From Saccharothrix ecbatanensis (lineage in GTDB: Bacteria > Actinomycetota > Actinomycetes > Mycobacteriales > Pseudonocardiaceae): a stretch of 64,000 nucleotides of DNA. Location: the NCBI RefSeq assembly GCF_014205015.1, contig NZ_JACHMO010000001.1, positions 8,122,001-8,186,000 on the forward strand, written 5' to 3'. The notes under the pieces are model-generated. The model made no database searches, was not told the DNA's origin, and was given only the letters and a program-made list of their open reading frames with translations. Positions 44,363 through 53,274 of the stretch are shown in pieces. Every line of letters starts with the position of its first letter. The first letter of the stretch is position 1. A program made the translations under genes and the position numbers.

Positions 44363-45595
44363 ATGGTTGTACAGGATCGTTCGAATGGACGTGCGTTGAC
44401 GGACAACGAAGCCGGCGCGTTAGCCAGGGCCCTCGACCGGCACCAGGTCGACGCGACCGCCATGGCCAACGCGCTCGTCGAACTCGACGGGCACCCGGGG
44501 CACCGGCTCTTCAGCTCCACCTTGTCCTCGGGGATCACCGCCGAGAGGTGGGCCGTGGCCGAGGTGATCTTCGCTGGCTTGTGGCGGGACTTCGACACCT
44601 ACCGCGCGGTGCTCGACGCCGCCGAACGGGTTCGGGGGCGGCGCTCCAAGCTCGGGCCGGCGGAGGTCGCCGAACTGCGACAACTGCTCGTCGAACCGTC
44701 CGTCGAGGTGTCCCGGCGGGCCGTGCCGCTGCCTGAGCGCGGGTTGACCGGGGCCGCCGAGCAGATCGAGTCGATCACCCTCGCGGCGTTGGCGGCCCGG
44801 ATGAACGACGCGTACCGGCAGGTCAGCGAGCTGGCCGTGCGGTGCGACGAGCTGAACTCCACCACCCTCAAGACTCTCGCGCCGCTGCTGGAGCAGGCAC
44901 GACGACTCGCCGAAGACGACGCCGCGCTGGAACTGGAGCCGGCCCCGGTGGTGCTGCGAGTCCGCGAGATCGAACAGCTCGCGGGCAACGACCCGCTCGC
45001 GTTGGCCGACCGATCGCTCGACGACACCCTGGCCCGGCTCAGGGCCGAGCTCGCCGAGGAACGCGCGCGGGTCGACCGGATGCTCGTGCTGCGGGAACGC
45101 TGGGAGCAGGTGCGGGCCGAACTCGTCGATGCCACGGCAGCACTCGCCGACCTGAGGGTGGCCACCGCAGACGACTACGCGGCCGCCGCCGAGCGGGTCG
45201 TCGGCGACTTGCCCGCCCTGCCGGTCGACCGGGCACCGCGACTACAGGCCGCGGTAGCGCGGCTGGACGACCTGAGCTGGGCCAAGCGCGACGCCGGGGC
45301 CATCGACGTGCGGCGTGATCTCGCGGCCGCCGACGCGGAACTGCGCGCGGCACGTCAGCTGGCCACGGGGTTGTTGGAGCGGCGCGAGGAACTGCGCGGA
45401 CGATTCGGCGCTTACCAGGCCCGAGCTGTTCGGCTGGGGTTGGCCGAAGAGGGCGCGGTGATGGCCGTCGCCGAGCGGATCAAGGCGACGTTGTGGCGGC
45501 GGCCGTCCGATCTGGCCGCTGCCACCAGGGACTTGGCGGACTTTCGCCGGCTGCTCGTCGAGCCCGGCACGGACACCGGAGGCAGGTCGGCATGA
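44363..45595 (+). CDS. Helical coiled-coil protein, first gene of the pknG operon
   Basis: A 410-residue, almost entirely alpha-helical cytosolic protein. The N-terminal ~70 residues (NEAGALARALDRHQVDATAMANALVELDGHPGHRL) form a compact domain resembling effector-associated adaptor modules; this is tentative. The remainder has long heptad-rich helices (LARLRAELAEERARVDRMLVLRERWEQVRAELVDA). No catalytic motif. Its stop overlaps the pknG start (ATGA), so it is probably a scaffold or partner for the kinase. Confidence 0.75.
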   Translation: MVVQDRSNGRALTDNEAGALARALDRHQVDATAMANALVELDGHPGHRLFSSTLSSGITAERWAVAEVIFAGLWRDFDTYRAVLDAAERVRGRRSKLGPAEVAELRQLLVEPSVEVSRRAVPLPERGLTGAAEQIESITLAALAARMNDAYRQVSELAVRCDELNSTTLKTLAPLLEQARRLAEDDAALELEPAPVVLRVREIEQLAGNDPLALADRSLDDTLARLRAELAEERARVDRMLVLRERWEQVRAELVDATAALADLRVATADDYAAAAERVVGDLPALPVDRAPRLQAAVARLDDLSWAKRDAGAIDVRRDLAAADAELRAARQLATGLLERREELRGRFGAYQARAVRLGLAEEGAVMAVAERIKATLWRRPSDLAAATRDLADFRRLLVEPGTDTGGRSA

Positions 45596-47973
45596 GCCAG
45601 AAGGATCGTTGCGCGCAGCCGGGTTGTGGCGGTGCGATCGATGGCGGTTACTGCGATACGTGTGGGATGGCGGGTGCGGCGCCGGTGAGCGCGCCCACGC
45701 CGGTGCCGGTAAGCGTGCCTGCGCCGGTGTCACAACCGGTGTCGAGTGTGTGTTCGCAGCCGGGTTGTGGCGGTGCGATCGACGGCGGCTACTGCGACAC
45801 GTGCGGGATGGCCGGTGTGGCCTCCACCGGATCGGAGACCGCCGCCGAATCGGAGACCGCCGTCTCGTCCTCGGTCACCATCCCCAGCGGGCTCAGCGGC
45901 CGCGCGTCGCGCCGGACCGGCGCCACCTCCACCGCGCATGCCTCGTCCCGGCGTGGTGGCGGTCTCGGCGCGGGGCTCGTCGACGTCCCCTCGGTGCCCA
46001 TGGTCGACCCCGTCGCGGCCATCCTCAAAGACCCGCAGGTCGCCGAGAGCAAGCGGTACTGCGGCAAGTGCGACCAGCCCGTCGGCCGCGGCAAGGACGG
46101 GAAACCCGGACGGCTGCGTGGTTTCTGCCCCACCGACGGCACCCCGTTCAACTTCGTGCCGTCGCTCGCCGAGGGAACGCTCGTCGGCGGTCAGTACCTC
46201 GTCCAGGGCTGCCTCGCGCACGGCGGGCTCGGCTGGATCTACCTCGCCACCGACCGCAACGTCAACGACCGGTGGGTCGTGCTCAAGGGACTGCTCGACG
46301 TCGACGACCCGGCCGCGCGGGCGGCCGCCGAGGCCGAGCGGCGGTTCCTCGCCGAGGTGAACCACCCGAACATCGTCATGATCCACAATTTCGTGGAGCA
46401 CCCCGACGACGACGGCAAACCCATCGGCTACATCGTGATGGAGTACGTCGGCGGCTCGTCGCTGCGCAAGCTCGTGGAGGACCGCGGCAAGGCGGTCGGC
46501 CAGCGCCTCGCGCCGCTGCCGCTGCCCCAAGTCATCTCCTACGGCTTGGAGATCCTGCCCGCGCTCGGCTACCTGCACGGCCAGGGTTTGGCCTACTGCG
46601 ACCTCAAACCGGACAACGTGATCCAGTACGAACGCCGGCTCAAGCTGATCGACATGGGCGCGGTCGTGCCGTTCGGGAACGCCGACGGCTTCGACTGGTA
46701 CGGCACGCCCGGCTACCAGGCGCCGGACTTCGAGTCCGAGGGACCGTCGCCGGCCGCCGACATCCACACCGTCGGGCGCACGCTCATGGTGATGGCGCTG
46801 GGCACGTCGCCGTTGCGCGGCGGCAAGCCGGTGCCGTTGCCCGACCCGGCGGCCGAGCGGCTGCTCGCCGAGCACGAGTCGTTCCACCGGGTGTTGCTGC
46901 GCGCAACCGACCCCGATCCGAAGCGGCGCTTCGCCTCCGCCGAGGAGATGGCCGATCAGCTGACCGGCGTGCTGCGGGAGGTGCTCGCCGCCGAGGACGG
47001 CAAAGCGCGCCCCGGCGTGTCCACGGTGTTCGGTCCGTCGCCATCGGTGTTCGGCATCGGCCTGCTGGGCGACGTGGGCAGCCCCGGCCGCCCCGACCCG
47101 GTGGCGGTCGCCCCGACGCTGCCGGTTCCGCTCGTGGACACGACCGACTCGGCGGCCGGGCTGCTCGCCACGGCGTCGTCGGCGGCGCCTGAGGAGATCC
47201 TGCGTCTCGCGGCCGTCACCCCGACGCCCAGCGTCGAACTGCGGCTGCGGGTGGTTCGCGCGCACCTGGAAGTCGGCGACGTCGGTTCGGCGCAGAAAGC
47301 GTTGCAGCGTCTGCGAACCGACTTACCCGGTGACTGGCGCTGTGATTGGTTCACCGGGGTAGCGGCCTTGACCGCCGGTGACGCGCGGGCCGCGACCACC
47401 GCGTTCGACACCGTGCTCGCGACGCTGCCCGGCGAGTCCGCGCCGAAGCTGGCACTGGCCGCGGCGGCGGAGTGCGCCGGCGACGACGCTGTGGCCGGCC
47501 GCTACTACCTCCAGGTCAACCGGCCGAATCCGGACATCGCCGACGCGGCGTTCGGCCAGGCGCGGGTGGCGTTGCGCGCCGGTCGGCCCGAGGTGGCGCT
47601 GGCCGCGCTGGACACGATCGCGCCGACGTCGAGCCAGTACGTGACCGCGCAGACCGTCGCGGTGCGGGTGATGATCGGCGGTTCGGTCGACGAGGGCGTG
47701 CTGCGTGCGGCCGCCGACCGGGTCGGCAGGCTCACCCTGGACCAGGCCACGGGGCACGAGGTGCGCGCATCGGTGTTCAGGGCCGCGTTACCGCTGGTCA
47801 CGGCGACCAACGGGGCTCGCCCGCCGCTGCTCGGCAGTTCTTGGACCGAGCACGGCGTACGGGCCGCGTTGGAGACCGAGCTACGGGCGGGTGCCCGGCT
47901 GGCCACCGACGAGGCCACCAGGGTCGACCTGGTCGACCTGGCCAACGCCATCCGGCCGGTGTCATGGGTGTGA
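45592..47973 (+). CDS. pknG: PknG-like serine/threonine protein kinase with duplicated zinc ribbons
   Basis: A 793-residue soluble kinase. Residues ~7-27 and ~54-74 are two near-identical zinc-ribbon units (QPGCGGAIDGGYCDTCGMAG), encoded by a 63-base duplication 141 bases apart (from 45614 and 45755). A rubredoxin-like pair follows (YCGKCDQPVGRGK, GFCPTDGTPFN). Kinase domain ~195-460: GCLAHGGLGWIYLATD, Lys in VVLKGLL, catalytic YCDLKPDNVI, LIDMGAV. C-terminal TPR-like helices ~525-793. PknG phosphorylates FHA proteins such as GarA/OdhI to control glutamate metabolism. The N-terminal extra ribbons are not in mycobacterial PknG. Confidence 0.93.
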   Translation: MSQKDRCAQPGCGGAIDGGYCDTCGMAGAAPVSAPTPVPVSVPAPVSQPVSSVCSQPGCGGAIDGGYCDTCGMAGVASTGSETAAESETAVSSSVTIPSGLSGRASRRTGATSTAHASSRRGGGLGAGLVDVPSVPMVDPVAAILKDPQVAESKRYCGKCDQPVGRGKDGKPGRLRGFCPTDGTPFNFVPSLAEGTLVGGQYLVQGCLAHGGLGWIYLATDRNVNDRWVVLKGLLDVDDPAARAAAEAERRFLAEVNHPNIVMIHNFVEHPDDDGKPIGYIVMEYVGGSSLRKLVEDRGKAVGQRLAPLPLPQVISYGLEILPALGYLHGQGLAYCDLKPDNVIQYERRLKLIDMGAVVPFGNADGFDWYGTPGYQAPDFESEGPSPAADIHTVGRTLMVMALGTSPLRGGKPVPLPDPAAERLLAEHESFHRVLLRATDPDPKRRFASAEEMADQLTGVLREVLAAEDGKARPGVSTVFGPSPSVFGIGLLGDVGSPGRPDPVAVAPTLPVPLVDTTDSAAGLLATASSAAPEEILRLAAVTPTPSVELRLRVVRAHLEVGDVGSAQKALQRLRTDLPGDWRCDWFTGVAALTAGDARAATTAFDTVLATLPGESAPKLALAAAAECAGDDAVAGRYYLQVNRPNPDIADAAFGQARVALRAGRPEVALAALDTIAPTSSQYVTAQTVAVRVMIGGSVDEGVLRAAADRVGRLTLDQATGHEVRASVFRAALPLVTATNGARPPLLGSSWTEHGVRAALETELRAGARLATDEATRVDLVDLANAIRPVSWV

Positions 47974-48956
47974 ACGCACTGGCCGGCAGTTGCCCGGCGT
48001 GCGCCGAACCGGTCGGGCTGGGGGATCGGTTCTGCGAGGCGTGCGGCACTCCGTTGCTGCGCAAGGGCAGCACCTCCGCCGAGGCCGCCACGAAGGACGT
48101 CGTGCGTAAGTGCCCGGCGTGCGGCGCGGTGAGCGGGACCGCGACCGAGTACTGCGACGAGTGCGGGTTGCGCCTGCCGGACCCGGCCGATCGGACGACC
48201 ATCGACCTCGGCGCCTTGGCCGGGGTCAGCGACCGGGGCCTGGTGCACCACCGCAACGAGGACGCGATCGCGCTCGGCCGTCTGCTCGACGGCACCACCG
48301 CCGCTGTGGTGTGTGACGGTGTGTCCACCACGCGCCAACCCGAACGAGCCGCGCGAGCGGCGTCCGAGGCGGCGCTGGCGGTGCTGCTCGGTGTGGACGC
48401 GCCGGTGGAACCGGTCGCCCGCGTCCGCGCGGCGGTGGAGGCGGCAGGTACCGCTGTGGCCACTTTGGACGGTTCGAATCCCTCGCCGGACGGACCGTCC
48501 TGCACGCTCGTCGCCGCCTACGTCGCCGGCGGCGAGGTGACCGTCGGCTGGGTCGGTGACAGTCGGGCGTACTGGCTCGCCGGCCCGGACGGCCGCTTGC
48601 TCACCCGCGACCACTCGTGGGCCGCCGAGGTCGTCGCGGAAGGGCTCATGGACGAGGCGGCCGCGTTCGCCGACCGCCGCGCGCACACGATCACCCGCTG
48701 GCTGGGCCCGGACACGCGGCCTGATCCCGACGTCGTCTCCGTGCCCCACGACGGCGCGGGCACCCTGCTCGTCTGCTCGGACGGTCTGTGGAACGAGGTG
48801 CCGGAGGCCGGACGGATCGGCGAGTTCGCGGCGGGTGCGGGGGATGGGGCGACACCACTGGCCGTCGCCAACCGGCTCACCGAGGTCGCGCTGGCCGCCG
48901 GCGGCCGGGACAACATCAGCGTCGTCGTCATCCCTTTGGAAGGAGTACAGGTATGA
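47964..48956 (+). CDS. PP2C-type Ser/Thr phosphatase with zinc ribbons
   Basis: A 330-residue protein. Two CxxC zinc ribbons come first (SCPACAEPVGLGDRFCEACG; KCPACGAVSGTATEYCDECG), then a complete PP2C domain: RGLVHHRNEDAIALG, VVCDGVSTT, VTVGWVGDSRAYWL, LLVCSDGLWNEV and GGRDNISVVVIP. It likely removes phosphates placed by the adjacent PknG. ATG 47964 overlaps pknG by ten bases; GTG 47970 would give a four-base overlap. Confidence 0.9.
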   Translation: MGVNALAGSCPACAEPVGLGDRFCEACGTPLLRKGSTSAEAATKDVVRKCPACGAVSGTATEYCDECGLRLPDPADRTTIDLGALAGVSDRGLVHHRNEDAIALGRLLDGTTAAVVCDGVSTTRQPERAARAASEAALAVLLGVDAPVEPVARVRAAVEAAGTAVATLDGSNPSPDGPSCTLVAAYVAGGEVTVGWVGDSRAYWLAGPDGRLLTRDHSWAAEVVAEGLMDEAAAFADRRAHTITRWLGPDTRPDPDVVSVPHDGAGTLLVCSDGLWNEVPEAGRIGEFAAGAGDGATPLAVANRLTEVALAAGGRDNISVVVIPLEGVQV

Positions 48957-50230
48957 GTGCAGAAGCAGAGTTCGTCGTCACCGTCGACCAGAACGCCTAC
49001 CTTTCGGTGGGGGCGACCAGGGTGGACGCGGTCGTGGCGGTGACCGCCACCGGGGACGCGACCCCCGCGGTGCCCACCGCGGCGCTGGAGCTGCTGATCA
49101 TCGACACCTCCGGGTCGATGCAGGGCGACCGGATCGCCTCGGCGCGCGCGGCCACCGCGGTCGCGATCGAGCAGTTGCGCGACGGTGTGCTGTTCGCCGT
49201 GATCTCCGGCGCGACCAGCGCGCGGCAGGTCTACCCGAAGCGGGGCGCGGCGCGGGCCGACCCCCAGACCAGGGCCGAGGCCGTCACGGCGGTGCGCAAG
49301 CTCTCCGCGGGCGGGGGCACCGCGTTCTCCAACTGGCTGACTCTCGCGCGGCAGATCGCCGAGCAGCACCCGGGGGCGATCCGGCACGCGCTGCTGCTCA
49401 CCGACGGCCAGAACGGCGACGGTCGCGGTGTGCTGGAGCAGACCATCGAAGAGTGCATCGGCGTGTTCAGCTGTGACTGCCGCGGCGTCGGCACCGACTG
49501 GAACGTCGCGGAGGTGCGCAAGATCGCATCCGCGTTGCTGGGCACGGTGGACATCGTGGCGAAGCCGGAGAACCTGGCCGCCGACTTCCACGCGATCATG
49601 AACTCCGCGATGGGCAAACGGGTCGCGGACGTGTCGTTGCGGCTGTGGACGCCGAAGGGCGCGCAGGTCAAGTTCGTCAAGCAGGTCGCGCCGGAGGTCG
49701 AGGACCTGACCGCGAAGCGGGTGCAGACCGGGCCGCTGCACGGCGACTACCCGTTGGGCGCGTGGGGCGCGGAGAGCCGCGAGTACCACGTGTGCGTCGA
49801 GGTGCCCACGCAGGCGATCGGCGCGGAGATGCTCGCCTGCCGGGCGATGGTGGTCCGCGGCGGTTCCACGGAAACCCTTGCGCAGGGCCTGGTCCGGGCC
49901 GTGTGGACCGACGACGACGCGTTGTCGGCCAAGGTCAGCAGGAAGGTCGCGCACTACACCGGGCAGTCGGAGTACGCGGACGCGGTCGAGCACGGGCTCG
50001 CCGCCCGTCGCGACGGTGACGAGCGCACGGCCACGATGCGTCTCGGTCGCGCGGTCGCGCTGGCCACCGCGGCGGGCGACCGGGAGAAGCTCGAGATGTT
50101 GGCGAAGGTGGTCGACGTGGACGACGCCGCGACCGGGACCGTGCGGTTGAAGAGCAAGGTCTCCGACGAAGCCGAGATGGAGCTGGACATCCGATCGCGG
50201 CGGACCAGCCGGGTCCGCGGCGAGGGCTGA
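48953..50230 (+). CDS. VWA domain protein
   Basis: A 425-residue protein without signal peptide or membrane helix. The von Willebrand A domain has a complete MIDAS: LLIIDTSGSMQGDRI, Thr in GGGTAFSNW and Asp in LLLTDGQNGD. It is followed by a beta-rich middle and a helical C-terminus (AVEHGLAARRDGDERTATMRLGRAVALATAA). A metal-dependent protein-binding role is likely. GGAAGGAG precedes the ATG, which overlaps the phosphatase stop (ATGA). Confidence 0.88.
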   Translation: MSAEAEFVVTVDQNAYLSVGATRVDAVVAVTATGDATPAVPTAALELLIIDTSGSMQGDRIASARAATAVAIEQLRDGVLFAVISGATSARQVYPKRGAARADPQTRAEAVTAVRKLSAGGGTAFSNWLTLARQIAEQHPGAIRHALLLTDGQNGDGRGVLEQTIEECIGVFSCDCRGVGTDWNVAEVRKIASALLGTVDIVAKPENLAADFHAIMNSAMGKRVADVSLRLWTPKGAQVKFVKQVAPEVEDLTAKRVQTGPLHGDYPLGAWGAESREYHVCVEVPTQAIGAEMLACRAMVVRGGSTETLAQGLVRAVWTDDDALSAKVSRKVAHYTGQSEYADAVEHGLAARRDGDERTATMRLGRAVALATAAGDREKLEMLAKVVDVDDAATGTVRLKSKVSDEAEMELDIRSRRTSRVRGEG

Positions 50231-50233
50231 GCC

Positions 50234-50926
50234 GTGCCGGTATGCGCGGCCGGGCACGATTCGACGGCCACCGACTACTGCGACGTCTGCGGCCTCGTGC
50301 TCGGGGCCGCCCCGCCACCGCTTCCGGAATCGTCGGGACCTACGGCGTCCGGACCTGCGGCGTCGGCATCGGTGGTTCCGGTGGCTTCGGCGCCGGTGGC
50401 CGGGATGACCTGCGCCGGCTGCGGGGTGCCGAGGGAGGGCAGGTTCTGCGAGGAGTGCGGGTTCGACAACGACCTGCCCGCGCCTCCGCCACGGTCCGTC
50501 GCGGCCGAGCCGGCGCAGTCGTCGCTCTGGACGGCCGTGGTGCGGGCGGACCGCGCGTGGTTCGACGAGGTCCGCCGCCGTGAGGGTTCGGAGGCGGCGG
50601 ACATGGACTTCCCGCTCTACTGCCCGGAACGCCGGTTCGAGCTGGACCGCGAGCAGGTCGCGATCGGCAGGCGAAGCCGCTCGCGCGGCACCAACCCGGA
50701 GATCGACCTCGGCAGCCCGCCGCTGGATCCGGGGGTGTCCTCGCAGCACGCCGTGCTGGTGGCCCGATCCGACGGCGGCTGGGACGTCGTCGACCTCGGT
50801 TCGACCAACGGCACCTCGGTCGGTGACACGACGGACGTGATCGAGCCCAACACCCCGGTCGAGGTGCCGGCCGGGGTGCCGATCCGGCTCGGCGCGTGGA
50901 CCGTGATCACCCTGGAACGGCACTAG
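50234..50926 (+). CDS. FHA domain protein with zinc ribbons
   Basis: A 230-residue protein: zinc ribbon 1 (VCAAGHDSTATDYCDVCG), Pro/Ser/Ala linker, zinc ribbon 2 (TCAGCGVPREGRFCEECG), then an FHA domain with IGRRSRSRGTNPEIDLG, VSSQHAVLV and DLGSTNGTSV, the phosphothreonine-binding residues. As the last gene of the pknG operon it is a probable kinase substrate or reader. The GTG start is three bases after the VWA stop. Confidence 0.9.
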   Translation: MPVCAAGHDSTATDYCDVCGLVLGAAPPPLPESSGPTASGPAASASVVPVASAPVAGMTCAGCGVPREGRFCEECGFDNDLPAPPPRSVAAEPAQSSLWTAVVRADRAWFDEVRRREGSEAADMDFPLYCPERRFELDREQVAIGRRSRSRGTNPEIDLGSPPLDPGVSSQHAVLVARSDGGWDVVDLGSTNGTSVGDTTDVIEPNTPVEVPAGVPIRLGAWTVITLERH

Positions 50927-50927
50927 C

Positions 50928-50971
50928 TCGTGCGTGGCGATTCGGGTGAGCACCCGAATCGCCACGCACGA
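50928..50971. terminator. Bidirectional terminator between the pknG operon and glnH
   Basis: A perfect 21-bp inverted repeat (left arm starts TCGTGCGTGGCGATTCGG) separated by two bases, filling the gap between two convergent stop codons. Confidence 0.85.
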
Positions 50972-50974
50972 CCC

Positions 50975-51961
50975 TCAGTCGCGGTAGCGGGCCGACGGGA
51001 TCGGCGGCACCGGGTTCAGCTGGGCGCCCAGCCACTTCCGGGCGCTCGCGGCGAGACTGCCGTTGGCGCGGTCGCGTTCGAGCAGCCTGTTGACGAAGCG
51101 CACCAGGTCCGGCTGCTGGGGGTGCATCCCGACGCCGTAGTAGGCGTTGGCCAGTGGCCGGCCGACGACCCTGGTCTGCGGGTCCTGCGCGGCCATGCCG
51201 GCGAGGATGCCGTCGTCGCTGGACACCGCGTCGACCTTGCCCTGCTGCAACGCGACCATGCAGTGGGGGATGCCTGCCAGCGTCACCACGTCCAGTCCGA
51301 ACTCGGGCTTGCGCAGCACGACCTCGGTGGTGGAGCCGATCGACGTGCAGACCTTCTTGCCCGCCAGCTGCTCGATCCCGTCCACACCCGACTTCGCCGG
51401 GACCAGCAGTCGCTGCGTCGCCTCGTAGTAGCCGGTGGAGAACTCCACCGCGCGTTGCCGGTCGCAGGTCGCGCTGAACGTGTTGACCACGACGTCGACC
51501 TGGCCCTGCTCGATCAGGAGCGTCCGGTCGGCGACGTCGCGCACGACGTACTGGACCTTGTCCGGATCGCCGAGGATCGCCGCGGCGATCATGCGGACGA
51601 TGTCGATGTCGGCGCCTTCGAGCTGCCCGGTCTGCGGGTTGCGGTAGCCGAGCAGGTACTTGCCCTGGTCGACGCCCGCGATCAGCCGGCCGCGTTGCTG
51701 GATCTTCTCCATGGTCGAGCCGGACGGCATGGCGCCGGGCGACGGCAACGCCTCCAACGGGCGCAGGCTGTCCTTGATGGTGCCGCACTCCCCTTGCTTC
51801 GCCGCCGGCGCCTTGGTGTCCGCGCCGTCGGTGGTCACGGCCACGGAATCGGTGCCGTGCAACGAAGGCAGGGCAATACTGCCCACCGACAACACCGCCG
51901 CGACGGCGAGAACGACCACCGGCCGCCGGATGTCGATCTTGACTTTCGCCGGACCGGTCAT
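50975..51961 (-). CDS. glnH: GlnH-like glutamate/aspartate-binding protein
   Basis: A 328-residue family 3 solute-binding protein with an N-terminal signal or anchor (RRPVVVLAVAAVLSVGSIAL) and no lipobox Cys. Ligand-binding lobes: RLIAGVDQGKYLLGYRNPQTGQLEG, DVVVNTFSAT, AVEFSTGYYEATQRLLV and KVCTSIGSTTE. In mycobacteria GlnH senses aspartate and glutamate and signals through GlnX to PknG. It overlaps the glnX stop (ATGA) and converges on the pknG operon. Confidence 0.9.
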   Translation of the reverse strand: MTGPAKVKIDIRRPVVVLAVAAVLSVGSIALPSLHGTDSVAVTTDGADTKAPAAKQGECGTIKDSLRPLEALPSPGAMPSGSTMEKIQQRGRLIAGVDQGKYLLGYRNPQTGQLEGADIDIVRMIAAAILGDPDKVQYVVRDVADRTLLIEQGQVDVVVNTFSATCDRQRAVEFSTGYYEATQRLLVPAKSGVDGIEQLAGKKVCTSIGSTTEVVLRKPEFGLDVVTLAGIPHCMVALQQGKVDAVSSDDGILAGMAAQDPQTRVVGRPLANAYYGVGMHPQQPDLVRFVNRLLERDRANGSLAASARKWLGAQLNPVPPIPSARYRD

Positions 51962-53274
51962 CGGTACTCCTCCACTCGGCGTGCGATCCCGATCCCGAAT
52001 CCGACAGCCGCCAGCGCGAACAACACCGCGGGGCCGAACCCGAGCAACGTCGTCGCGTCGCTCGCGTCACCGGTCGCGGCGGACAGCCGGGCACGCGCGG
52101 TGTCACCCGCGTCGCCGACGGCCTTGTCCAGCGCGGTGAAAGCGGAACCCGAGCCGGACGGGTCCGTGCCGACGGCGGCCTGGACGGCGTCGGCGTAACG
52201 GCCCTCGTCGTCGGCCGCCCGCAGGTCCTTGTGCGCTTTGACCCAGTTGTCGGTCGCCGTTCGGATGGCGGCGACGTCCACCCCGTTGTCCCCGGCGACG
52301 GCCAGCGGTCCGCCATCGACCAGCAACCGGTCGATCCGGTCGGTGAAACCGGCGTCGGACGCGCTGCCGCCGCTGCGGGCGACCAGCACGAGGCTCTCGT
52401 TGCTGCGGGCCTGGAGGACGAGCGTGCCGGCCTCGTCCAGCGCGGTCGCGGCGTCGCTGGCCTCGTTGGCGTCGGCCAGGGCGGTGTTGGTGGACACCGT
52501 GGCCGCCACCCACCACATCAGCCCGGCCACGACCGCGAGGATCGCGGCGGCGACGCCGAGGTTCAGCCTGCGGCGGGTCCGCCGGAACTCCTTCCGGGAG
52601 AAGTCGAGTGCGATGAACAGCAGTGCCAGCCCGAACACGACGACCGCGATCGGCAGCGCACTGGCCCGCTGGTAATCGGCGTTCAGCGCGCTCACCTCGC
52701 TGTGGCGCAAGGACTCGGCCGCGGGCAGCAGCTCGGTGCGCATTTGCGCGGACGCCTGCGCCAGGTACGACTGGCCGAGTGGCAGCCCCTGCCGGTTGTA
52801 CGTGCGCGCCGTCTCGATCAGCCCGGTGTAGTTGGGCAGCCCGGTGATCATGGTGTCCAGCGGCTTCGCGGCCGGATCGTCCGGCGTGATCAGCCGGGAC
52901 GCCTCCGCGAGTCCCCGGCCGGCGCGGGCGATGTCGGCGTCGTAGCGGGTGCGGATCGCGGGCGGCTCCTGGCCGGACGAGACGTAGCCGCTGGTGGCCA
53001 TCGCGTCGGCGTCCGCGAGCGCCTGGTAGATCTCGCCCGCGGCTTGCGCCAACGACGCGTCGCGGTTGCCCGCTTCGTCGATCGCGCCGACCCGCGAGGT
53101 GCCGCCGACCAGGCTGATCACGGCGGTGATCAGGCTCGCGAGCGTCAACACCACGCCGATGCGGCGTAGCTGCGCGGGCGTGCGCGGCCCGGTCCACTGC
53201 GAAAGACGGGACCGCTGAGTCCCGGTCGCACCACCGGCCGACGGTAACGCGGCGGCCGGAATCTGCGTCGTCAT
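51958..53274 (-). CDS. glnX: GlnX-like transmembrane signalling protein
   Basis: A 438-residue protein with four membrane helices in two pairs (IGVVLTLASLITAVISLVGG; ALPIAVVVFGLALLFIALDF; LGVAAAILAVVAGLMWWVAA; FGPAVLFALAAVGFGIGIA), each pair flanking a helical extracytoplasmic domain. This matches GlnX, which relays GlnH occupancy to PknG. It is the first gene of a two-gene operon with glnH. Confidence 0.88.
   Translation of the reverse strand: MTTQIPAAALPSAGGATGTQRSRLSQWTGPRTPAQLRRIGVVLTLASLITAVISLVGGTSRVGAIDEAGNRDASLAQAAGEIYQALADADAMATSGYVSSGQEPPAIRTRYDADIARAGRGLAEASRLITPDDPAAKPLDTMITGLPNYTGLIETARTYNRQGLPLGQSYLAQASAQMRTELLPAAESLRHSEVSALNADYQRASALPIAVVVFGLALLFIALDFSRKEFRRTRRRLNLGVAAAILAVVAGLMWWVAATVSTNTALADANEASDAATALDEAGTLVLQARSNESLVLVARSGGSASDAGFTDRIDRLLVDGGPLAVAGDNGVDVAAIRTATDNWVKAHKDLRAADDEGRYADAVQAAVGTDPSGSGSAFTALDKAVGDAGDTARARLSAATGDASDATTLLGFGPAVLFALAAVGFGIGIARRVEEYR

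Follow-up and report, generated by a model that had tools for sequence, protein, structure and literature searches.

A recurrent PknG gene block with an ArnB-like VWA protein in Saccharothrix ecbatanensis as a candidate amino-acid-gated phospho-switch

The protein kinase PknG is known from Mycobacterium and Corynebacterium, where it works with the transducer GlnX and the solute-binding protein GlnH and has OdhI/GarA as its output (PMC6069109, PMC9769921). The GlnH of Mycobacterium tuberculosis contacts Asp through Arg147, Thr162 and Trp232, among other residues, and the PknG-linked GlnH proteins of the Actinomycetales are expected to bind Asp or Glu (PMC6069109). In a second described system, the ArnA-ArnB regulation of the archaellum in Sulfolobus, phosphorylation of ArnB maps to the C-terminal bundle and in vitro also to a place near its very C-terminus, and the solved structure 4FX5 is a structural match of vWA2 (PMC6509490). 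The zinc ribbon of ArnA (C21, C24, C35, C38) contacts the beta-sandwich and the helical domain of ArnB, and in the tight ArnA-ArnB state driven by phosphorylation the FHA domain binds the phosphorylated C-terminal bundle (PMC12852372, 2026). The EACC1 and Trypco1 families were described by Kaur et al. 2020 (PMC7159879), in whose main text the word PknG does not occur. Here a PknG locus of Saccharothrix ecbatanensis is described, located in a 64-kb window (the whole stretch of DNA that was analysed) of a 9.69-Mb single-contig genome, in which five plus-strand genes, encoding a coiled-coil (CC) protein, PknG, a PP2C phosphatase, a VWA protein and an FHA protein, stand head to tail and convergent on glnH-glnX. 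On balance, it is probable that this locus constitutes a complete amino-acid-gated Ser/Thr phospho-switch, of the Arn type and driven by PknG.

Matches in Pfam and NCBIfam were obtained for PknG, PP2C with a double zinc ribbon, VWA_3 with VWA_3_C, FHA, SBP_bac_3 and GlnX. The kinase has the PknG architecture (PknG_TPR 264 bits, PknG_rubred 83, Pkinase 88; PF16919, PF00069 and PF16918 all above cut-off) and matches PDB 2pzi at E 6.5e-162. The CC/pknG, pknG/PP2C and PP2C/VWA junctions each overlap by 4 bases, as does glnX/glnH, and the FHA gene starts 3 bases beyond the VWA stop; the original prediction of five overlapping genes that converge on glnX-glnH therefore stands for the convergence and, strictly, for the overlap of four of the five. 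CxxC zinc ribbons could, as predicted, be read in the kinase, the phosphatase and the FHA protein, two in each; in the first ribbon of the FHA protein, the first knuckle has only one Cys.

A census of related genomes found PknG_TPR in 57 of 99, in 93 rows representing 91 loci, that of the window included, with genes and neighbours called by a simple gene finder of our own and hidden Markov models (HMMs). GlnX, GlnH, CC, PP2C, VWA and FHA were all present in 22 of the 91 loci, GlnX and GlnH only in 19, and GlnX, GlnH and PP2C in 12, the remainder being peptidase types (trypsin or caspase, discussed below), partial sets or incomplete; a VWA gene adjoined pknG in 56. The five loci of family f8, which is taken as mycobacteria-like since its GarA reads ETTS, had no VWA, PP2C, FHA or CC. 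Among the 40 loci with PP2C, CC, VWA and FHA were present together in 22 and absent together in 12 (three had VWA and FHA, two VWA only, and one CC and VWA), and there were no instances of CC or FHA without VWA. The PP2C-only label changed eight times on the PknG tree, which suggests that CC, VWA and FHA tend to travel together, repeatedly.

Beyond the census, the VWA alignment, searched against GTDB genomes, retrieved at least 582 relatives. All seven genes were found in 59 of the best 80 named loci, from Streptomyces, Actinoplanes, Actinomadura and other genera, a set that was chosen by VWA likeness and so gives no measure of frequency; at least 16 of the 21 others are cut near a contig end, judged by length, and L111, L113, L129 and L171 are not. 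Within the 59 loci the order CC-PknG-PP2C-VWA-FHA was fixed, with glnX-glnH before it in 50, after it in six and convergent on it, as in the window, in three (Labedaea and two Pseudonocardia). Across a class-level sample of 79 genomes, our own included, PknG_TPR occurred in 19 genomes (29 places) and the VWA family (E<=1e-60) in 12 (19 places), all 12 of which also have PknG. VWA lay within 3 kb of PknG_TPR in 17 of the 19 places, or 14 of 16 when our own genome was excluded, as compared by eye, the places away from PknG_TPR being G166:C119 and G134:C1:7093681. The five-gene block with its movable glnX-glnH pair is widespread, and the prediction of an expansion special to this locus, itself one among the genome's four PknG loci, consequently falls; a local or recent expansion at the window was rejected on the same ground. 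The neighbourhood survey bore out the co-conservation of the five genes as a recurring unit, which makes a phospho-relay larger than kinase and sensor, as originally proposed, likely.

The case for an Arn-type mechanism centres on the VWA protein, which aligns from residue 2 to residue 422 with PDB 4fx5 (E 4e-112). With its AlphaFold model (predicted local distance difference test, pLDDT, 89) as query, Foldseek placed 4fx5 first (TM 0.91), followed at ranks 2-4 by ArnB 8s05 and vWA2 5a8j, and the comparison with ArnB of the ArnAB complex 8s05 gave E 1e-19 and TM 0.67/0.73. PF18571 (VWA_3_C) is read here as corresponding to ArnB_C (IPR040929), and the protein is, as judged from its predicted model, ArnB-like. 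The strings DxSxS, GGT and TDG of the metal-ion-dependent adhesion site were present in all 56 census VWA proteins. Near the C-terminus, S-x-x-T with R or Q two after the Thr occurred in 104 of 104 VWA proteins with 67 distinct tails, drawn from 25 census loci with FHA and 79 named loci (Labedaea being in both sets, and no FHA being called in some of the named ones); the pattern is anchored on S..T, which makes the entropy there zero by construction, and this does not apply to the match rate. Two after the Thr, R was found in 64 of the 67 distinct tails, and three after it V, I or L in 59 and T in eight; a hydrophobic side chain at this +3 position is favourable to FHA binding. The S..T was also found in all three caspase-type loci and was kept, with Met three after the Thr, in the PP2C and VWA loci L261 and L264, and the tail pattern occurred in none of 25 VWA proteins from trypsin/SBP1-type loci, where a zinc ribbon forms the end of the protein in 24. 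The FHA gene was called in 25 of the 91 census loci with VWA present in every one; this pattern favours VWA over PknG alone as the partner of the FHA protein. The VWA tail is the likelier candidate phosphosite and the FHA protein its likelier reader.

The extra zinc ribbons of PknG were counted with one wide search interval applied alike to all 91 census loci. An extra ribbon was present in 53 of 56 loci with VWA against 12 of 35 without, the 12 comprising eight of the 12 PP2C-only loci and four of 23 others; scored by the presence of VWA or PP2C, the counts were 61 of 68 against 4 of 23, and kinship among the rows inflates both comparisons. On the PknG tree there were eight independent pairs for ribbon and VWA, with 4.9 on average in the same direction and none in the opposite one. 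By sequence comparison, the PknG ribbon belongs to the extended block; a role specifically in docking on VWA is suggested by the ArnA-ArnB structure. The two ribbons of the window kinase are identical at 51 of 57 bases, and their reading as a fresh duplication was rejected, since the pair is shared by the sister-species locus L071 and the Labedaea locus L072 has three ribbons. The fourth Cys position of the rubredoxin domain is D in all three window-type and all three caspase-type PknG proteins and C in 80 others (five unread); without this Cys, those kinases may lack the redox control that has been reported for the domain.

In the proposed switch, GlnH would bind an extracellular amino acid and GlnX would relay the signal to PknG, probably via its TPR domain, both steps being assumed from the mycobacterial and corynebacterial model of others. 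PknG would then phosphorylate the C-terminal region of the VWA protein, most likely at Thr418 in RSRRTSRV, and the zinc-ribbon FHA protein would bind the phosphorylated form as ArnA does ArnB in Sulfolobus, with PP2C reversing the modification. The ribbons at the PknG N-terminus may dock on the VWA hub in the manner of the ArnA zinc finger on ArnB, and the FHA ribbons perhaps do so too. The CC protein would be the output adaptor, its tail bearing a trypsin-like or caspase-like domain instead in sister loci, and the window set would be a second lineage that has probably been retuned to a different ligand.

Several observations weigh against this scheme. The tree-aware sign test for ribbon and VWA was not significant (median p 0.0625, range 0.016-0.5), and the PknG tree was a quick one with long-branch warnings; the predicted link of the ribbons to the extra genes thus holds in the counts and not in this test. 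Three kinases from loci with VWA have no ribbon, and in all 12 VWA-less PP2C loci the PP2C retains one or more CxxC knuckles; because these knuckles persist and most of the same loci keep the PknG ribbon, the ribbons appear to serve more than VWA. A D...GTVRL stretch about 20 residues upstream of the VWA tail is conserved equally, so that the tail motif is not the sole conserved part of the VWA C-terminus. The context of Thr418 is basic, unlike the acidic ETTS site of GarA, and the three caspase-type loci, L261 and L264 bear the tail with no FHA gene called nearby. The CC model had no PDB match at E<=0.001. In PMC12852372, the majority of ArnB-like proteins elsewhere are placed outside multi-phosphorylation switches; the actinobacterial ones may act in such switches, as argued from gene context.

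The CC protein is nearly all helical, with a C-terminal tail domain at about residues 318-402 that has an RRxELRGR core, and its AlphaFold model consists of helices and two short strands (pLDDT 88). A tail HMM, seeded with 12 window-type and collinear loci only, gave 45 matches in 1237 census genes, every one directly upstream of pknG and on its strand; 24 of these proteins had no detected peptidase domain, 18 had a trypsin and three a caspase domain, classes assigned by similarity to the L070, L084 and L073 sequences and checked with Pfam. When the C-terminal 96 residues of the trypsin protein from L084 were compared with 5.8 billion proteins, 152 were retrieved, and the 120 matches listed were mostly of about 400 residues without a Pfam domain, with two carrying PF13365 and one named as a caspase-domain protein. 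The window CC tail retrieved at least 40 proteins, with a Pfam domain in none of those listed. In the caspase-type loci L073, L074 and L075, the protein encoded upstream of pknG is caspase-like and bears the CC tail; each locus also has a glnX-glnH pair or two of them, and EACC1 is present in L073 and L074. The VWA and CC proteins, originally described as parts with no assignable role, can thus be placed, the former as ArnB-like and the latter by a tail common to peptidase-bearing proteins.

These sister loci allow the window locus to be read as an effector (conflict-type) system, a nutrient-gated relative of the vWA/trypsin/caspase/EACC1/Trypco1 systems in which the CC protein, as a modified effector or adaptor, would trigger arrest. 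By Pfam, such loci from this and related genomes carry, with the CC tail, Trypsin_2 and Trypco1 (97 bits; L070), caspase C14 and EACC1 (98 bits; L073) or Trypsin_2 alone (L069), and kinase, PP2C and vWA genes are reported from GAP1-N2 neighbourhoods (Kaur et al. 2020, PMC7159879). This reading is nevertheless doubtful: neither a peptidase nor EACC1 or Trypco1 is found by Pfam at the window locus, and the seven-gene make-up is constant over many genera, which is unexpected for a fast-changing conflict system. The window CC protein has no Pfam match at E<=1, and a known effector-associated domain was rejected for it on that account; 12 members of its family, compared with Pfam, matched five families, each in one member, with a best E of 0.027. 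We infer that the CC protein is an output adaptor.

Under classical PknG logic, the FHA protein of the operon would be a substrate of the GarA/OdhI type that folds upon itself when phosphorylated by PknG, with VWA and CC as scaffolds. PknG is reported to dock FHA substrates by its phosphorylated N-terminus (PMC8546545), and the FHA protein is encoded in the same unit as PknG and has the phospho-Thr-site signature (Arg, Ser, Asn), readable in 25 members of its family. However, this alternative is unlikely, as zinc ribbons take the place of an ETTS-like site ahead of the FHA domain, where no such site could be read in the window protein, the FHA gene keeps company with VWA as described above, and the genome has a separate GarA homologue. 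The latter, found in the FHA family search (L188), lies outside the PknG loci at C1:5255192-5255653 and reads ERTSVFRADFL, not ETTSVFRADFL; the first Thr of ETTS, which we take to be the PknG site, is Arg there, and the exact VETTSVFR-type pattern had no match in the genome. Among 50 GarA loci fetched, 40 read ERTS, one EQTS and three ETTS, and six were unreadable; all 41 loci that could be read from the family of the window had ERTS or EQTS, and all three from family f8 had ETTS. A tie between the loss of the first Thr and the VWA block was rejected, since genomes of the same family without VWA at PknG also read ERTS, which the block accordingly does not explain.

The TerY-P triad of Ter loci, for which the literature search found no paper, combines a TerY-type vWA protein, a PP2C and a zinc-ribbon kinase. 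A separate metabolic or envelope switch, in which PknG, PP2C and VWA would form a similar triad without an Arn-type mechanism, can appeal to the kinase, PP2C and vWA neighbours known in actinobacteria (PMC7159879) and is highly improbable, as the fold of the VWA protein is that of ArnB, its partner is an FHA protein with zinc ribbons, and the GlnH-GlnX input is of the amino-acid type.

The input side of the preferred amino-acid-gated phospho-switch differs among locus types. The GlnH pocket columns read RRTTRWD in 12 of 12 PP2C-only, 15 of 19 collinear seven-gene, three of three no-CC and eight of 19 bare loci, and were otherwise mostly one residue off, with three collinear loci reading RRTTRTN, without the Trp. 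Window-type pockets read RNTSRID or RNSTRID (3/3), with Ile replacing Trp, trypsin-type pockets RADTRSD in seven of 10, and caspase-type pockets RAGTRTG or RAATRTG, and NDSTRFT. With pockets this divergent, the expectation of Asp or Glu binding may fail for the paralogues. A simple lipobox pattern was found in none of three window-type GlnH proteins and in 17 of 19 collinear seven-gene ones, the bare type being split 9 to 10.

The genome has four PknG_TPR matches, that of the window being non-canonical. The canonical locus, at 2.50 Mb, has the order glnX-glnH-pknG-PP2C without CC, VWA or FHA, and its GlnX scores 450 bits, against 363 for the window copy. The remaining two loci, both trypsin-type, lie about 16 kb apart at 2.146 and 2.163 Mb (C1:2136000-2172000), L069 with the order trypsin-CC tail, pknG, VWA, then GlnX-like and SBP_bac_1, and L070 with trypsin-CC tail, pknG, VWA, then Trypco1 and convergent glnH-glnX. 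The window-type set and a canonical CC/VWA/FHA block behave as if one replaces the other, and the canonical locus of this genome probably lost CC, VWA and FHA. That the window set arose by recent copying of the canonical locus in the same genome was rejected, the path from the window clade to the nearest outside PknG being 1.72. All three census genomes with the window-type set have canonical loci (L068, L267, L249) without CC, VWA and FHA, and L068 and L267 are sisters on the PknG tree.

More broadly, and tentatively, PknG may act as the kinase in a family of modular receptors of multicellular actinobacteria, assembled from a floating cassette of GlnX and a binding protein, a ribbon-tagged PknG, an ArnB-like VWA hub and outputs fused to the CC tail. 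With similar reserve, the cassette could vary between GlnH with retuned pockets, tandem pairs and an SBP_bac_1 protein; its outputs possibly include a helical adaptor, a trypsin-like domain, in some cases with Trypco1, and a caspase-like domain, in some cases with EACC1. Were this the case, some PknG loci would be nutrient-gated peptidase switches, possibly ones that control cell fate, and four PknG loci would run in parallel in one genome. The literature found on PknG centres on GarA/OdhI, whereas here PknG is tied to a conserved four-partner block from Streptomyces to Pseudonocardia, and a nutrient sensor is joined with caspase-like and trypsin-like proteins in the same genomes. The phospho-reader model is borrowed from a solved archaeal complex and narrows the candidate phosphosite to one residue; it also offers a candidate role for the solved structure 4FX5 and a possible reason for the extra zinc ribbons on PknG. 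No joint report of PknG with ArnA/ArnB, or of GlnX with EACC1, was found in the open-licence PMC literature, and as far as that literature was searched these known parts have not been described in this combination.

Coordinates of the features are collected in Table 1. The hairpin between the convergent units is probably a two-way terminator; the terminator scan did not list it, and the promoter and terminator scans gave nothing above shuffled sequences.

Table 1. Features of the PknG locus, in positions of the window.
Feature	Position	Strand	Description
CC gene	44363..45595	+	Product 410 aa
pknG	45592..47973	+	Product 793 aa, with two zinc ribbons at the N-terminus before the rubredoxin, kinase and TPR domains
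PknG N-terminal zinc ribbon 1	45610..45666	+	CAQPGCGGAIDGGYCDTCG
PknG N-terminal zinc ribbon 2	45751..45807	+	CSQPGCGGAIDGGYCDTCG
PknG rubredoxin domain	45964..46167	+	Asp at fourth Cys position
PP2C gene	47970..48956	+	GTG start; N-terminal double zinc ribbon; PP2C_2 39.5 bits, DZR 36.7
VWA gene	48953..50230	+	VWA_3 and VWA_3_C (PF18571, 55 bits); VWA, beta-sandwich, C-terminal helices
VWA C-terminal peptide RSRRTSRV	50192..50215	+	Candidate phospho-Thr site Thr418
FHA gene	50234..50926	+	GTG start; two N-terminal zinc ribbons; FHA domain about 50663-50893, 42 bits
Hairpin, 20-bp	50928..50971		Between convergent units; -41.2 kcal/mol, z -9.86; without T tract
glnH	50975..51961	-	Solute-binding protein family 3; SBP_bac_3 79 bits; PDB 6h1u E 5.7e-57
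glnX	51958..53274	-	Membrane signal transducer; NF058618 364 bits, cut-off 250

Compared with known systems, the locus shares with PknG-GlnX-GlnH the kinase architecture, the sensor pair and their linkage, to which it adds PP2C, VWA, FHA and CC in one block as well as the extra PknG ribbons; it differs further in a rubredoxin domain without the fourth Cys, a GlnH without the pocket Trp, and a GarA homologue in its own genome that reads ERTS rather than ETTS. With the ArnA-ArnB system, in which the kinases are ArnC and ArnD and the phosphatase is PP2A, it has in common a VWA protein with a beta-sandwich and C-terminal helices beside a zinc-ribbon FHA protein, the presence of a kinase and a phosphatase, and a nutrient input. 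In contrast to that system, it is bacterial and forms a single operon, its kinase is PknG with a GlnX-GlnH receptor, its phosphatase is a PP2C, and its VWA protein has one conserved tail motif where ArnB has several Thr sites. The VWA protein 4FX5 of Catenulispora acidiphila is a full-length homologue of the window VWA protein. Finally, as in the EACC1-caspase and Trypco-trypsin systems of Kaur et al. 2020 (PMC7159879), some sister PknG loci carry EACC1 with a caspase, or Trypco1 with a trypsin, beside the VWA gene; the window locus has none of these four.

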